Part shown: positions 23,923 through 41,416 of the stretch, piece by piece
Layout of the letters: each line of letters opens with the position of its first letter
Position numbering within the stretch: position 1 is the stretch's first letter
DNA from: Chloroherpetonaceae bacterium
GTDB lineage: Bacteria; Bacteroidota; Chlorobiia; Chlorobiales; Chloroherpetonaceae
Direction of reading: 5' to 3'
Assembly: GCA_028277445.1 (NCBI GenBank)
Contig: JANQGG010000023.1
Coordinates: 62,001-126,000, forward strand
DNA: 64,000 nucleotides
Notes under the pieces: generated by a model
What the model was told of the DNA's origin: nothing
The model's database searches: none
What the model saw: the letters and a program-made list of their open reading frames with translations, nothing else
Position numbers and translations under genes: made by a program

Positions 23923-24031
23923 CTATTTTGTTAAGTTCCAGCCTGTTTTTTATGAATAGTCTTTACCATAATCTACTTATAAAATCTTGAATTGATTAAT
24001 CTTAAAATAGCGTTTCGTTAAAATTTATTTT

Positions 24032-24274
24032 ATGAAAATATCAGTTGTTATCTCAAATTTCAATTATAGCCATTACATTGAAGATGCAGTTGAAAGCATT
24101 TTATCAAACGATAAAGAGTATTTAAAAGAAATAATAATAGTTGATGATGGCTCAATCGACGATTCACACGTGGTTTTAGAGCAATTACATCAGAAGCATG
24201 ATAAAGTAAGATTAATTAAGAAAGAAAATGGTGGTCAATTTTCATGTTTTAGAAAAGGGATTGAGGTTGCTTAA
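24032..24274 (+). pseudogene. Truncated family 2 glycosyltransferase (N-terminal fragment)
   Basis: An 80-codon frame matching only the first part of a GT2 (GT-A fold) enzyme: ISVVISNFNYSHYIEDAVES, then IIIVDDGSIDDSH and the lead-in LIKKENGGQFSCFRKGIEVA. Complete GT2 proteins continue with the DSDD metal-binding motif about ten residues later, but here a TAA follows. The next 180 bp show no continuation in any plus-strand frame that I could find. It is therefore a decayed or truncated gene with no expected transferase activity. It sits at the left edge of an AT-rich segment, which suggests that segment arrived or was remodelled by recombination. Confidence 0.75.
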
Positions 24275-24456
24275 ACGTGATTTCAATATTTAAAAGTAAA
24301 GGATAAGTAGGCACGTGAGTCTTGTTTAAAAGCATCTAAAATGATGAAAATATTGTTATTAGGAAAGCTTTGATTTGCAATGCCAATTAGTAAGGGTTGT
24401 TATTATAAAGATAATGAAAAGTTGATGTTATAATAAATGATTGCAATAATTGTTAC

Positions 24457-25170
24457 ATGTGTATGATAAATTTATTATGGACAGGAGGTTGGGATTCAAC
24501 ATATAGGTTGCTTTATCTGATCATAGTTGAGAACCAGCACGTTCAGCCGTATTATCTCATTGACCCAGATCGTAAATCGACCAAAGAAGAAATGGCGGCA
24601 ATGAATGATATTCGAAAATTACTTAGAAAGAAAGATCAGCTATTGTCTGAACTTTTGTTTTCAACAAAAATTGTAAAAGTTCAATCACTTAATGACCATC
24701 AGGAGATTTCTGATAAATACATGAGTTTAAAGTCGCGGTTTCATATTGGGAGTCAATATGAGTGGCTTGCTAAGTTTGCACATGAGTATCAGATCAAAAA
24801 TTTAGAAATAGGTATAGAAAAGGATGTTATCGATAGAAGTCCTTTTTTTAAATATCTAAGTGAGTTTATGCAGATTGAGGGGAAAACGATATCATTGTCA
24901 AAAAAATTACCTGATTTTAATCTTTCGTTTCTACAAGATTTTCATTTTCCGGTATTTTTTTTGACTAAGTTAGATATGAAATACAATGCTAAACATTATG
25001 GGTTTTATGATATACTTAAAAAAACATGGTTTTGTCATACGCCGAAGAATGGCAAACCTTGTGGTTGGTGTAATCCATGTAAGGCTATAATGATTAGTGA
25101 TGTTAAAGATCGAATGCCTTTATATGGGAAAGCTAGGTATTATCTGTATCGAATGATAAAAAATAAATAA
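24457..25170 (+). CDS. QueC-like PP-loop ATPase of a glycan locus
   Basis: A 237-residue protein of the adenine-nucleotide alpha-hydrolase (PP-loop) superfamily. The ATP-pyrophosphatase loop is TGGWDST at residues 9-15, a variant of SGGxDS. Near the C-terminus, C-x8-CGWCNPC matches the four-cysteine zinc site of QueC (7-cyano-7-deazaguanine synthase). No queD, queE or queF is nearby, so a queuosine role is unlikely. QueC-like proteins outside that pathway are known in defence systems (Qat, some CBASS). Here the neighbours are an ATP-grasp enzyme 6 bp downstream and a glycosyltransferase, so I infer activation or modification of a carboxylate on a sugar, glycan or protein. Either of two close ATGs (24457, 24463) may be the start. 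Confidence 0.75.
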   Translation: MCMINLLWTGGWDSTYRLLYLIIVENQHVQPYYLIDPDRKSTKEEMAAMNDIRKLLRKKDQLLSELLFSTKIVKVQSLNDHQEISDKYMSLKSRFHIGSQYEWLAKFAHEYQIKNLEIGIEKDVIDRSPFFKYLSEFMQIEGKTISLSKKLPDFNLSFLQDFHFPVFFLTKLDMKYNAKHYGFYDILKKTWFCHTPKNGKPCGWCNPCKAIMISDVKDRMPLYGKARYYLYRMIKNK

Positions 25171-25176
25171 GTTTAT

Positions 25177-26205
25177 ATGATATATTTTCTTACCACATCG
25201 AAGCATCAATATACAATTAACGCTTTTTTAAATGATTGGGCGCCGGAATTAAAAAATATAGTTTTTATTAAATCTTACGATGAAATTTTTAATCAAAAAA
25301 GTTTTAATTCGGGATTATATTTTTTTACCGATATTGAAAGATTGTCGCCGCATATGGTAATATTGGCTGAAGAATTATGGGATAAACTTCATAATAACAC
25401 CTCAATACGTTTATACAACCATCCTACAAAGTCAATGCGGCGTTATGAATTGTTAAAAACGCTATATGATTTTTCAGAAAATTCATTCAGGGTATTTAGA
25501 ATTTCAGATAGTAAAAAAGGCCTTAAATTCCCAGTATTTATAAGAGGGGAAAACGATCATTACGGAAGTCTTTCAGGTTTAATATATAATCGCAAAGAGC
25601 TGAATTTAGCCTTAAAAAAAGCCGTAAAAAAAATAAGAAAGGTAAGTGAACTTCTAATTGTTGAGTTTTTGGATACTTCAGATACCAGAGGTGTTTATAG
25701 GAAGTATTCATCGTTTATTTTAGGTGAAAAAGTTATCCCTCGTCATATTTTATATGGCAACAAATGGATGGTGAAATATCCTGATATTGAAAGAGTGGAT
25801 GATGATTATACTGAAGAAGCTTTTTATTTGGAAACGAACCCTCATGAAAATAAGCTTAAGTCAATTTTTAAAAAAGCCGGAATTGAATATGGTAGGATTG
25901 ATTATAGCCTATTAAATGGTAAACTTCAGGTCTGGGAGATAAACACGAATCCTATTGTTTTAAGGCCAATGAAAGAATATAAAGAAGATTATCAACCGCT
26001 TCAATGGGTTTTCGCAAATCAATTTAAAAATACTTTGCTTGAGATCAATCGAATGATAATTAATAAGAATGATATAAACATAAATATAAAGCATACTACC
26101 TATTTAAAATCTAAAATTGTAAAATATAATGATAAATTTAATCAAAAAATGTATAGGTTGATCCCAAATGAATTTAAGCCATTCCTTTTAAAATCATTGA
26201 GATAA
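25177..26205 (+). CDS. ATP-grasp family ligase-like protein
   Basis: A 342-residue protein not matched to a named family. The C-terminal half has ATP-grasp features: FPVFIRGENDHYGS (118-131) in the place of the lysine-bearing strand, LLIVEFLDTSD (159-169) as the E-x-x-x hinge strand, and GIEYGRIDYSLLNG followed by WEINTNP (Asp242, Glu254, Asn256) as the Mg-ATP site. ATP-grasp enzymes form amide or thioester bonds via acyl-phosphates. It starts 6 bp after the QueC-like gene and precedes a glycosyltransferase by 25 bp, so the three are probably one transcript. Substrate unknown; ligation of an amine or amino acid to a sugar acid is a reasonable guess. Confidence 0.7.
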   Translation: MIYFLTTSKHQYTINAFLNDWAPELKNIVFIKSYDEIFNQKSFNSGLYFFTDIERLSPHMVILAEELWDKLHNNTSIRLYNHPTKSMRRYELLKTLYDFSENSFRVFRISDSKKGLKFPVFIRGENDHYGSLSGLIYNRKELNLALKKAVKKIRKVSELLIVEFLDTSDTRGVYRKYSSFILGEKVIPRHILYGNKWMVKYPDIERVDDDYTEEAFYLETNPHENKLKSIFKKAGIEYGRIDYSLLNGKLQVWEINTNPIVLRPMKEYKEDYQPLQWVFANQFKNTLLEINRMIINKNDININIKHTTYLKSKIVKYNDKFNQKMYRLIPNEFKPFLLKSLR

Positions 26206-26230
26206 TAATATCCTCAGATATTGAGTTAAT

Positions 26231-27208
26231 ATGTCAAAAAATATAATATTACGGCCTGTTTTTAATCGACCTGAAATGCTACAGCTCTCAATAGAATATG
26301 AGATTCGTGCAAGAAAAAAATCAGGTATAAAAGATCATGAGTTTCTAACGCTCTTCCTCATTGAATATGGGGCATTACATAAGACAAGGCAAATTGTAAA
26401 ATCATACCCTTTTCCGGCCAAGTATGTGTTTCGGAAACGTGAATATGAATCAATAGATATCTTGAAATTAGTCAAAAATCAAAAATTGTACTTTCGTTAT
26501 GGATTAAGTAGGAACCTCATGGAAGGAATGAAAGAAGCCTTTACGTTAAGCGATGACTATGTATTAATAATTGAAGATGACATCTTAATTCATGAAACAT
26601 ATTTTCATTACCTAAAAACATTATTAGCAATATCTGAGGTATATCCATATAGTTCGATTTCAGCTTCAAAACATGGTATGTTTTCATGGTCTGCTAAAAC
26701 CGCTGAATTGAATAATTCAGGGGATTTATCAATTGTTAGGCAAGGTCATGATTATTCACCTTGGGCAAGTGTTATCAGTAAATGGTTTTTTGATAACTAC
26801 GTATTGCCTTATGCAAATGAAAATTATTATGAGAATCGTGAAAAAGTTGTTTTAGCCATTAATGATAAGTACAAAGAACTCAATCAGAAAGGATATAAAT
26901 ACACCGATAATAAACATATTGAACAAGCCGGTTTAATAAATCGTCTTGTGGATGTTGCTATGATTAAAGATAATGCATTTGTTTTAACCCCTGATGTTGA
27001 TAGGCAAATGCACATCGGGTATTATGGGGCAAACCGTGGACGAAATAAAATTAAAGGATGGGGCTTTAAACAACGTGTTGAAACACTGCGCAAGATTATA
27101 GATAACAAGCAATTGTATGATAATGCCAAACGAAAACATCATAAGGATTACAGGTACTTTAATGATAATTTAAATTCTTGGAATGGAATTTTAAAGTTGG
27201 TAGAATAA
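26231..27208 (+). CDS. GT-A-like glycosyltransferase, specificity unknown
   Basis: A 325-residue protein. The N-terminal NIILRPVFNRPEMLQLSIEY resembles the first strand and helix of GT-A glycosyltransferases. YVLIIEDDILIHETYFHYL (IIEDDI at 113-118) is a DxD-type acidic motif as in GNT-I/GT2-like enzymes, where it binds the metal and nucleotide sugar. SPWASVISKWFFDNY may form the acceptor side. It is the third gene of the AT-rich operon-like set with the PP-loop and ATP-grasp genes. No transmembrane segment is seen. It could transfer the sugar that its neighbours modify; that link is inference. Confidence 0.65.
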   Translation: MSKNIILRPVFNRPEMLQLSIEYEIRARKKSGIKDHEFLTLFLIEYGALHKTRQIVKSYPFPAKYVFRKREYESIDILKLVKNQKLYFRYGLSRNLMEGMKEAFTLSDDYVLIIEDDILIHETYFHYLKTLLAISEVYPYSSISASKHGMFSWSAKTAELNNSGDLSIVRQGHDYSPWASVISKWFFDNYVLPYANENYYENREKVVLAINDKYKELNQKGYKYTDNKHIEQAGLINRLVDVAMIKDNAFVLTPDVDRQMHIGYYGANRGRNKIKGWGFKQRVETLRKIIDNKQLYDNAKRKHHKDYRYFNDNLNSWNGILKLVE

Positions 27209-27524
27209 CGATTAGTGAAATAAAAGTAAGCGTTTTAATATTTTGATGATATAATAATATCAAATGCTTTTATAATAATTTTTTTCTATAAAATTTTCAG
27301 ATAGTTTTTTTTACCGGATAATCCATGAAACCATATGTAATTCGGATTATTAATTTCTTTGGGAGCCTGTTTAAAAATTGAATATCCATTTCTATATAAT
27401 GCACCTCTGATATATTTTGAGCGGTTTTTGACATTACCACTTTCGCTGGTAAAAAAATTTTTTTGAATCATTTAGTAATTTTTTCTAACCTTGTGTTTTA
27501 TAAATACAAAGAAAATATACCCAT
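27209..27524. other. AT-rich intergenic stretch with a possible gene remnant
   Basis: A very AT-rich gap of about 316 bp between the GT-A-like gene and the next GT4 gene. A 61-codon minus-strand frame (27286-27471) encodes a lysine- and asparagine-rich peptide (KYIRGALYRNGYSIFKQAP in its middle). It reads like the N-terminal lead of a FkbM-type methyltransferase or glycosyltransferase but stops abruptly. I treat it as a likely remnant rather than a gene. No terminator or repeat was recognised here. The stretch forms the right edge of the AT-rich insert. Confidence 0.4.
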
Positions 27525-39066: not shown

Positions 39067-40383
39067 TTAAGAGTTGCCTGAGCCCAGCAACGAAATATTA
39101 CGTTTTGATGAAATGTTTTTTGTGGCGTTTCTTGTATCAACAATACATTTGGCATGTTTTGAAATCATTTCATAATCAAAATCGCTATGAGCGGTTGTGA
39201 TGATAACCAAATCAGCCTTTGAAACAACCTCAGGATTTATCTCAACGGCTTTTAAATGGATACCATCTTCATTTAATTCAGGTACATAAGGATCGCAGTA
39301 GTTGATATGTTTTGCCCCTTCTTTCATTAAAAGCTCAATCACTTTTAGAGCCGGTGAATGACGCGTATCATCAACATCTTGTTTAAAGGCCACACCTAAA
39401 ATCAGAAAATTGGCATCAATTAAACTTACAGGCATTTTAGCAAGCTCGTGCCAAATCATATCTCTAACATAAAACGGCATATTTTCATTGGTTTCAGCCG
39501 CAAGGGTAATAAACTTGGTTTGGAAATCATGCTCGCGCGCTTGCCAAGCAAGGTAATACGGATCAATTAAGATACAGTGCCCGCCAATACCCGGGCCAGG
39601 ATAAAATGGCATAAAACCAAAGGGTTTTGTAGACGCAGCTTCAACTACTTCCCATATATTAACACCGCCCATTCTATCGCAAAGCATCGCCAATTCGTTA
39701 ACCAATGCAATATTAACGCTTCTGAAAATATTCTCTAAAAGCTTTTCCATTTCAGCAACTTTCGGCGAAGAAACTTTATGCACATGTGATAGAATTTCCA
39801 GATTTGCTATGGATGCAAGTTCTGTACAGGTTTCCGTAACGCCGCCTACTACAATCGGCGTGTTTCGAGTATTCCATTTTTTATTACCAGGATCAATACG
39901 CTCAGGTGAAAAAGCAAGAAAGTAATCTTTCCCAACCATTAGACCGCTTTCATTTAAAATCGGCAAAACATATCCTTCAGTGGTATTTGGAAATGTTGTG
40001 CTTTTAAGAATTATGAGCTGGTCTTTTCTGAGATGTTTTGAAATCTCTTTAGCTGAAGAAACAATGTACGAGATATCAGGTTCTTTATTTGGCGTGAATG
40101 GAGTCGGCACGCAAATATAGATCACATCGCATTCGCCAATTCTGCTATAATTATCTTCGGCTCTGAATCCGTTATCAAAAGCTTCCTGAAACTCGTCGGA
40201 TTTAATATCTAAAATGTAATTGTCGCCATTGTTGAGTCGTTCTACTTTCTGTGAACTTAAGTCGATGCCTAAGGTTTTAAAGCCTTTTCTGGCAAATTCA
40301 ACGGCTATGGGCAGGCCGACATAGCCTAATCCTACAACGCCAATGGTTGCGGTTTGATTTTCAATTTTGGTTTTTAAAGACAT
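39067..40383 (-). CDS. Nucleotide-sugar dehydrogenase (UDP-GlcNAc/ManNAc 6-dehydrogenase type, WbpA-like)
   Basis: Oxidises C6 of a UDP-sugar to a uronic acid using NAD. The 438 residues have the Rossmann motif GVVGLGYVGLPIAVEFARKG, VPTPFTPNKEPDISYI, LKSTTFPNTTEGYVLPIL (with S-T), FSPERIDPGN, and the catalytic cysteine in GPGIGGHCILIDPYYL. The pattern fits WbpA/TviB-type enzymes acting on UDP-GlcNAc or related amino sugars. I use ATG 40383 (MSLKTKIENQTATIG), because a longer frame to 40494 would run through the end of rfbB. It lies 19 bp after rfbB, so the two are probably one transcript supplying surface polysaccharide precursors. Confidence 0.88.
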   Translation of the reverse strand: MSLKTKIENQTATIGVVGLGYVGLPIAVEFARKGFKTLGIDLSSQKVERLNNGDNYILDIKSDEFQEAFDNGFRAEDNYSRIGECDVIYICVPTPFTPNKEPDISYIVSSAKEISKHLRKDQLIILKSTTFPNTTEGYVLPILNESGLMVGKDYFLAFSPERIDPGNKKWNTRNTPIVVGGVTETCTELASIANLEILSHVHKVSSPKVAEMEKLLENIFRSVNIALVNELAMLCDRMGGVNIWEVVEAASTKPFGFMPFYPGPGIGGHCILIDPYYLAWQAREHDFQTKFITLAAETNENMPFYVRDMIWHELAKMPVSLIDANFLILGVAFKQDVDDTRHSPALKVIELLMKEGAKHINYCDPYVPELNEDGIHLKAVEINPEVVSKADLVIITTAHSDFDYEMISKHAKCIVDTRNATKNISSKRNISLLGSGNS

Positions 40384-40402
40384 GGATTTTTTGATTATGA
40401 TT

Positions 40403-41416
40403 TTAACGAGCCGAGTATTGAAGCTTATAATAATCCATATAGACCCCAGAACGAATGCGCTCCCACCATTGCGTGTTTGATAAATACCACTCAATTGTTT
40501 TTTCTATTCCGGTATCAAACGTCTCTTTTGGTCGCCATCCCAACTCGTTTTCGATTTTTGAAGCGTCAATGGCGTAGCGTCGATCATGGCCGGGTCTATC
40601 CTTAACAAATTCAATCAAGCTTTCAGGTTTATTGAGCTTATTCAAGATTAACTTTACAATATCGATATTCATTTTTTCATTATTCCCGCCAATATTGTAG
40701 ACTTCTCCAAACGAACCCTTATGTAAAACCGCATCAATGGCTTGGCAATGATCTTCAACATATAACCAATCTCTGATATTTTTTCCATCGCCATATACTG
40801 GCAAAGATTTGTCTTCCAACGCGTTTGCAATCATCAGCGGGATAAGTTTCTCCGGAAATTGGTACGGTCCATAATTATTGGAACATCGGGTGGTTATGCA
40901 TGGGAGACCAAATGTTTCATGATAAGCCCTTACAAGTAAATCTGCCCCGGCTTTACTTGCTGAGTAAGGTGAATTGGCCATTAATGGCGTTGTTTCGGTA
41001 AAATAACCGCTAGGGCCTAAAGAGCCATAAACTTCATCGGTTGATATCTGAACGAATTTTTCAATCCCGATATTTTTCGATACATCCAAAAGCGTTTGAG
41101 TACCGATAACATTGGTTTCAACAAATACTCTGGCGCCAAGAATGCTTCTATCTACATGAGATTCCGCGGCAAAATTTATGACAACATCGATATTGTGAGT
41201 TTTAAAAACTTGCTCAACATCATTCAGCGAACCAATATCGCCTTTTACAAATGAATAATTTGGATGATGTTCAATATCAAGCAAATTTTCCAAATTTCCA
41301 GCGTAAGTTAGCGAATCAAAATTAACGATATGATAGTGATCATATGTTTGAAGCATATGCCGAACAAAATTACTTCCAATAAATCCGGCGCCACCGGTAA
41401 CAAGGATATTTTTCAT
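40403..41416 (-). CDS. rfbB: dTDP-glucose 4,6-dehydratase
   Basis: Converts dTDP-glucose to dTDP-4-keto-6-deoxyglucose. The 337 residues show NILVTGGAGFIGSNFVRHM, FAAESHVDRSI, STDEVYGSL, the catalytic YSASKAGAD, TRCSNNYGPYQFPEKLIP and DRPGHDRRYAIDASKI, a full set of RfbB motifs. The other dTDP-rhamnose genes (rfbA, rfbC, rfbD) are not in the window. Its partner in the transcript is the UDP-sugar dehydrogenase just downstream. Both feed the glycan machinery encoded at 17-31 kb, by inference. Confidence 0.95.
   Translation of the reverse strand: MKNILVTGGAGFIGSNFVRHMLQTYDHYHIVNFDSLTYAGNLENLLDIEHHPNYSFVKGDIGSLNDVEQVFKTHNIDVVINFAAESHVDRSILGARVFVETNVIGTQTLLDVSKNIGIEKFVQISTDEVYGSLGPSGYFTETTPLMANSPYSASKAGADLLVRAYHETFGLPCITTRCSNNYGPYQFPEKLIPLMIANALEDKSLPVYGDGKNIRDWLYVEDHCQAIDAVLHKGSFGEVYNIGGNNEKMNIDIVKLILNKLNKPESLIEFVKDRPGHDRRYAIDASKIENELGWRPKETFDTGIEKTIEWYLSNTQWWERIRSGVYMDYYKLQYSAR

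Follow-up and report, generated by a model that had tools for sequence, protein, structure and literature searches.

A QueC-related PP-loop protein and a likely ATP-grasp protein as a putative carboxyl-activating pair of surface-polysaccharide loci

We asked what a group of three AT-rich genes might contribute to the cluster of GT4- and GT9-type genes for glycosyltransferases in which it is embedded. The genes lie at positions 24457-27208 of a 64,000-nucleotide stretch from a Chloroherpetonaceae bacterium; this stretch, the window, covers positions 62001-126000 of one contig (C43) of a 3.42-Mb genome that is 99% complete. An initial annotation, made from the sequence alone, had described them as a same-strand module of a QueC-like PP-loop enzyme, an ATP-grasp enzyme and a GT-A-like glycosyltransferase, and had proposed a surface modification route in which two successive ATP-dependent acyl activations act on a sugar, lipid carrier or peptide. 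The open reading frames, the spacers (exactly 6 and 25 bp) and all of the motifs on which that description rested (TGGWDST, C-x8-CGxCxxC, GRIDY, WEINTNP and IIEDDI) were confirmed. Our reading, to which we assign a probability of about one half, is that the PP-loop and ATP-grasp proteins would act as a functional pair of carboxyl-activating enzymes in a surface-polysaccharide locus; two successive ATP-dependent carboxyl (acyl) activations are a reasonable reading of such a pair.

Does the PP-loop gene keep the company of ATP-grasp genes in other genomes? In polysaccharide loci, when tandem copies were treated as one and a single locus was counted per genome, an ATP-grasp gene directly adjoined the PP-loop gene in seven of eight genomes and was found within two genes of it in all eight, compared to 1.5 and 2.6 genomes expected from random placement within the same loci. 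The observed adjacency was reached in none of 20,000 shuffles, and when all loci were included it was seen in 8 of 12 (p = 0.0001). A looser ATP-grasp scan gave one weak extra candidate in locus L022 and one in L024 and did not change the picture. The rare co-occurrence that the initial annotation had named as grounds for giving up the module was thus not what we found. The partners come from four ATP-grasp families. TupA-type ATP-grasps neighbour the PP-loop gene in five loci (L007, L018-L020 and L022); the TupA gene adjoins it in L022 and is two genes away in the three genomes of the window's order (L018-L020). A sugar-transfer-associated ATP-grasp (ATPgrasp_ST) adjoins the PP-loop gene in L058, L059 and L060, an array of five ATPgrasp_ST genes accompanies it in L024, an ATP-grasp_3 type protein is its partner in L025, and in the actinomycete SN12 the PP-loop gene stands between a TupA-type ATP-grasp and an ATPgrasp_ST gene. 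The pairing therefore recurs in unrelated genomes, in glycosyltransferase clusters and above shuffled order, but the partner is not one conserved gene.

Other genes were also seen in these loci. The gene between PP-loop and TupA in L018-L020, directly after the PP-loop gene (L018:7832-8809, L019:9730-10731, L020:8055-8999), encodes a protein of 314-333 amino acids that looks acyltransferase-like by eye and has no Pfam or NCBIfam match. Two loci (L057:2410-6751 and L058:10871-16982) contain, in the same polysaccharide loci as their PP-loop genes, genes for an acyl carrier protein, β-ketoacyl synthase III, a short-chain dehydrogenase-like protein, a polysaccharide deacetylase and a PGA_cap-type protein.

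A natural fusion is the strongest single indication that the PP-loop and ATP-grasp activities go together. On IMG/VR contigs of 134-145 kb (L075 and L076, and partially in L077), ATP-grasp and PP-loop are joined in one 601-residue protein. Its N-terminal side resembles the window ATP-grasp protein (31% over 103 residues, E 9e-13, in a single BLASTP comparison) and its C-terminal side the window PP-loop enzyme (29% over 220 residues, E 5e-21), and the fusion protein scores 31 bits against PF06508. The contigs are almost identical in this region and were therefore counted as a single event. A uridine diphosphate (UDP)-glucose/guanosine diphosphate (GDP)-mannose dehydrogenase gene (PF03721, 8e-59) is located immediately upstream of the fusion, and the product of the next gene downstream is similar to the large subunit of phage terminases (24.5 bits, below the cut-off of 25.6); the contigs look like a large phage. 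Methyltransferase and radical S-adenosylmethionine genes are also present upstream, and the region resembles a sugar- or metabolite-modification island.

Several observations weigh against the proposed pair. The ATP-grasps in the adjacency test were called by models seeded from families first seen beside the PP-loop gene, and ATP-grasps are common in polysaccharide loci. The assignment of the window ATP-grasp protein rests on motifs and on profile matches that are all sub-threshold: Pfam gave a sub-threshold D-Ala-D-Ala-ligase C-terminal match only (0.08), and an AlphaFold2 model from two sequences had a predicted local distance difference test (pLDDT) score of 40 and was not used. Profile comparison with another ATP-grasp family (10% probability) was uninformative, as was a PDB profile search. 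The three residues of its likely Mg-ATP site are invariant in the seven-member alignment of its family, and it is 24% identical over 217 residues to a protein annotated as a RimK family ligase, which itself has no Pfam match at 1e-3; membership in the ATP-grasp superfamily is likely. Its relatives mostly adjoin a sodium:dicarboxylate symporter-type gene and not a PP-loop gene. This arrangement, with the relative directly after the symporter-type gene, is found in genomes G049, G203, G357 and G337 (L068, L069, L070 and L071; PF00375 at 7e-72 in L069, the one locus tested). A dicarboxylate or amino acid symporter would fit an amino-acid-joining ligase. Another relative, on a Paracoccus plasmid, belongs to a polysaccharide locus and stands between flippase and O-antigen ligase genes. 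PP-loop genes also occur solo. In L021, L023 and L061 they follow a regulator-like gene, and on two phage contigs they follow a LamG-like tail-type gene of 761 amino acids (PP-loop at L028:5983-6702) and an M14-carboxypeptidase-like gene of 947 amino acids, itself after a tail lysozyme (PP-loop at L074:6001-6741), in each case with no ATP-grasp. This means that the PP-loop enzyme can occur without a neighbouring ATP-grasp. Taking both sides together, we consider it very likely that the PP-loop and ATP-grasp proteins are functionally coupled.

We then asked whether the PP-loop protein is a QueC, an outcome under which, with queD/E/F elsewhere in the genome, the module idea would fail according to the initial annotation. 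It scores 30.6 bits against PF06508 (gathering cut-off 22) and 25.8 bits against the QueC equivalog model TIGR00364, under the cut-off of 150.3, and the genome encodes a canonical full QueC elsewhere (contig C69) to which it is 18% identical. All 21 relatives searched have a PF06508 match above the cut-off, which in nearly all of them is a full-length QueC. Canonical QueC is defined by SGGxDS, YxQxHxxE, VPxRN, YPDC and C(x)8CxxCxxC, and its substrate/ATP site contains YPDC, VPxRN and YxQxHxxE (PMC13329287). While the PP-loop ATP site, the C(x)8CxxCxxC cysteines, the conserved P and K ahead of them and the length of ∼230 amino acids are shared, the window family has WTGGWDST in place of SGGxDS (the first residue of the loop being T in the window protein, not S), and the window protein contains none of the three substrate-site motifs. 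YPDC is present in 0 of 25 family members compared to 12 of 12 QueC proteins from relatives, and the cysteine site is kept in 25 of 25, with a variable first spacing. The signature of the 21-member alignment reads WTGGWDST[FY]R ... V[QN]P ... E ... QY ... E ... P....K ... TWFC..P...PCGxCxPC. In a maximum-likelihood tree, for which QueC proteins were taken from relatives of the window genome, all 25 members cluster on a single branch (93/91, the bootstrap value being 93) that is separate from the QueC branch (100/99). Profile comparison still aligns the family with QueC nearly end to end (E 3e-5). In contrast to QueC, the family is found in polysaccharide loci or phages and not with queD/queE. 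The TIGR00364 score, the motifs and the tree rule out a true QueC paralogue. As the nucleobase-recognising residues are missing, the substrate is probably not 7-carboxy-7-deazaguanine. A divergent QueC-like protein of Pseudomonas jumbo phages (PA1C, PS119XW and others; L107:3989-4726), annotated as 7-cyano-7-deazaguanine synthase, is likewise without YPDC and was placed apart from the QueC branch.

A survey of PF06508 has described clusters of QatC, Cap9, LarE, a PfkB-associated group, WbpG-type amidotransferases, GMP synthase and archaeal groups, its ten clusters covering 98.5% of the family (PMC13329287). A polysaccharide- or ATP-grasp-associated group is not described there, and the words polysaccharide, glycosyltransferase and ATP-grasp occur zero times; given that coverage, the window lineage may be among the small clusters that were not analysed. 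Our literature search for a QueC-like enzyme together with ATP-grasp and polysaccharide found nothing relevant. Judged by its sequences, the family is a distinct, so far undescribed lineage of the QueC family.

The survey also includes a PP-loop enzyme known from O-antigen loci, WbpG (cluster 5), and this raises the question of whether the window enzyme could act as the WbpG/PseA N-acetyl-sugar amidotransferases do, with ATP activating the oxygen of an N-acyl amide and ammonia giving an amidine, while the ATP-grasp would serve separately. The kind of locus is the same. However, WbpG-type proteins have 300-400 amino acids and a CxxC(x)6CxC motif (PMC13329287), compared to ∼240 amino acids and C(x)8CxxCxxC here, they act on the N-acetyl group, and the neighbours listed included no recognisable glutaminase partner. 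We regard this alternative as unlikely.

The initial annotation had suggested structure prediction of both active sites, and only the PP-loop protein gave a usable model (AlphaFold2, five sequences; pLDDT 75, predicted template modelling score 0.75). Its Foldseek matches to the PDB were weak (best E 2.2e-4, template modelling (TM) score ∼0.45), so that the fold assignment rests on sequence. The top match was YcfA of Erwinia amylovora (13% identity), which we take to belong to thioguanine biosynthesis, and Cap9 and, weakly, ArtA were also among the matches. Viral proteins annotated as QueC were matched as well, the best being an iridovirus protein (TM 0.57/0.70, 22% identity). PP-loop enzymes often transfer sulfur, and the YcfA match could point to a thiolation or thioamide enzyme that uses a sulfur nucleophile instead of nitrogen. 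Besides the weakness of this match, the four cysteines have the spacing of the zinc site in QueC, and neither a cysteine desulfurase nor a sulfur carrier was recognised beside the PP-loop genes; we consider thiolation very unlikely.

The Cap9 match, together with the PP-loop genes directly behind large tail/receptor-binding-type genes in the L028 and L074 phages, is in agreement with a different idea, in which the enzyme modifies a surface or tail protein as Cap9 does when it joins 7-carboxy-7-deazaguanine to an N-terminal glycine, or as has been proposed for QatC. Cap9 and QatC do show reuse of the QueC fold, and the amine that Cap9 uses to form its amide is not ammonia. On the other hand, Cap9 keeps YPDC-like residues, which no member of the window family has (QatC is also without YPDC), QatC has ∼400 amino acids with extra domains, and both reside in defence operons. 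Most members of the window family belong to glycosyltransferase clusters, in which no single protein recurs as a partner, and no CD-NTase or Qat genes were recognised among the neighbours listed. We consider protein modification unlikely. For the two solo phage genes, tail proteins or glycans of the host surface are possible targets. A defence system of the Qat or CBASS (cyclic-oligonucleotide-based antiphage signalling system) type was rejected: PADLOC gave no QatC match, its QueC model reached 0.005 and 15 bits, and the neighbours are glycosyltransferases.

What could a carboxyl-activating pair do in such a locus? The route that we propose would begin with the making of a sugar that bears a carboxylate, such as a uronic acid, or an attached amino acid. 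The ATP-grasp protein would then activate a carboxylate as an acyl phosphate and join an amine to it, and the zinc-bearing PP-loop enzyme would adenylate a carboxylate, either on this sugar or on the amino acid that has just been added. Attack by ammonia or an amine would yield an amide, and a second ATP-dependent round could, as in QueC, lead to a nitrile, after which the GT-A enzyme would transfer the modified sugar or build on it. The gene order, the separate lineage, the missing QueC substrate motifs, the repeated ATP-grasp neighbours and the fusion are observed, and from them we infer the substrate, the product, the order of steps and the role of the glycosyltransferase. The genome has two full UDP-sugar-dehydrogenase-family genes, one in the window (39067-40494) and one on contig C38, and the former is a possible source of the uronic-acid carboxylate.

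There are precedents for each activity. In Campylobacter, Cj1438C, a TupA-type ATP-grasp of a capsule locus, converts the C6 carboxylate of glucuronic acid into an amide (PMC11800379). The window ATP-grasp belongs to another family, and the parts of that paper available to us mention no PP-loop partner for Cj1438. QueC converts a carboxylate to an amide and then to a nitrile in an ATP-dependent manner (PMC13329287), and Cap9 forms an amide (PMC13279940). PesC and the ArtA/NitB nitrile synthetases also carry out ATP-dependent amide/nitrile chemistry outside queuosine; they differ in that PesC is asparagine-synthetase-like, has a peptide substrate and uses glutamine, and ArtA/NitB catalyse the amide-to-nitrile step only (PMC13060819). 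QueC, Cap9 and ArtA/PesC thus suggest a repertoire of carboxylate-to-amide or amide-to-nitrile reactions. The prospect of amide-type chemistry on a carboxylate appears to us to be an even one, and formation of a nitrile by the PP-loop enzyme seems quite unlikely.

Does the third gene belong to the pair? Its product has no Pfam match of its own. The Glycos_transf_2 model (PF00535) matches three homologues on phage contigs with 39-47% aligned identity, at values down to 8e-7, and two close homologues exceed its cut-off, with 29.6 and 26.0 bits, which bears out its description as GT-A-like. Its relatives were absent from 248 genomes of the phylum; those detected are on IMG/VR contigs, in phage glycosyltransferase arrays, with neither PP-loop nor ATP-grasp in the flanks examined. 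The glycosyltransferase therefore does not stand as a conserved third member, and one conserved three-gene operon is ruled out, as neither this gene nor the exact ATP-grasp family is a conserved partner. Its link to the pair is local only, and a role in the pair is unsupported.

The three genes have a G+C content of 31.9% (PP-loop), 28.9% (ATP-grasp) and 32.2% (glycosyltransferase), compared to a mean of 40.8% (standard deviation 3.1) over the rest of the window genes that were tested, and their third-position G+C content is 2.2-3.0 standard deviations below these. The AT-richness noted in the initial annotation was thus confirmed, but the stretch is wider than the three genes, starting at ∼24000 with a truncated GT2 gene and ending at ∼27500 after an apparently non-coding part 3′ of the glycosyltransferase gene (27209-27524). 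The truncated frame stops at TAA with no long continuation and is a probable remnant; the island was likely acquired horizontally. No flanking repeats resembling element ends were found, and a promoter/terminator scan gave nothing remarkable. Could the genes then have arrived jointly as cargo from a phage or an island, with separate functions and no common pathway? The AT-rich island with its remnant fits this explanation, as do the IMG/VR contigs carrying the fusion and relatives of the PP-loop and glycosyltransferase genes, and the glycosyltransferase relatives without the other two genes. For the glycosyltransferase gene we find the cargo explanation likely. For all three genes it is rather improbable, as recurrent adjacency with different ATP-grasp families and the fusion are hard to explain by joint transfer, and all three frames are intact. 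The coordinates of the features are collected in Table 1.

Table 1. Features of the AT-rich island and related loci (window positions unless a locus is given)
Feature	Position	Strand	Evidence or remark
QueC-family PP-loop enzyme, 237 amino acids	24457-25170	+	PF06508, 2.9e-7; one branch with 24 homologues
PP-loop WTGGWDST	24478-24501	+	Within PP-loop gene; TGGWDST is residues 9-15
Zinc-type cysteine site C-x8-C-x2-C-x2-C	25033-25080	+	C193-x8-C202-G-x-C205-x2-C208 of PP-loop protein
ATP-grasp ligase-like protein (likely), 342 amino acids, RimK/Ddl-like	25177-26205	+	Motifs, sub-threshold Dala_Dala_lig_C, 7-member family
Likely Mg-ATP site D242, E254, N256	25900-25944	+	Within ATP-grasp gene; GRIDY (239-243), WEINTNP (253-259)
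GT-A-like glycosyltransferase, 325 amino acids, EDD motif (IIEDDI)	26231-27208	+	Homologues match PF00535
Truncated GT2 gene, N-terminal 80 amino acids only	24032-24274	+	PF00535, 7.9e-16, profile positions 1-77 of 168
AT-rich island	24000-27500	none	∼30% G+C compared to 41% around
UDP-glucose/GDP-mannose dehydrogenase family gene	39067-40494	-	PF03721, 1.5e-43; PF00984; PF03720
ATP-grasp/PP-loop fusion	L075:4861-6666 (also L076); L077:3-1394 (partial)		

Finally, we asked how widespread the PP-loop lineage is. It was found in 9 of 395 genomes across the phylum (4 of 171 genera), in 4 of 98 genomes of the window's order, in 8 of 92 genomes of one family of the phylum, with tandem and multiple copies (up to seven matches per genome, some being halves of one gene), and in 1 of 248 and 1 of 397 genomes of two further groups. 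Homologues are also present in Actinomycetales bacterium SN12 and in three distinct IMG/VR lineages; a plasmid collection contained none, and a collection of named phages none at useful similarity. The lineage is rare and occurs in the window's phylum, one actinomycete and phages. Two to three copies stand side by side in four loci (L024:9135-10726, L056:8721-10227, L057:8145-10012 and L060:8750-11033), in some of them from different sub-branches, a hint at several related substrates or subunits. Two frames without the N-terminal PP-loop motif (L020:8996-9568 and L025:9131-9814; an in-frame TGA is present in the genome of L020) are probably decaying copies.

The QueC scaffold has recently been shown to have moved from nucleic-acid metabolism to protein modification in phage defence. 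A further, doubtful extension would be a use of the QueC fold for ATP-dependent amide/nitrile tailoring of surface glycans, coupled to an amide ligase, tandem-duplicated in some bacteria and borne by phages, with nitrile-bearing or doubly amidated uronic acids as possible products. With the natural fusion and the two-gene pair at hand, this chemistry can be addressed directly in vitro. A further lineage of the scaffold, tied to ATP-grasps in polysaccharide loci and also carried by phages, suggests that there is carboxyl chemistry not yet recognised on bacterial surfaces, which are the place of contact for phages and immune systems.

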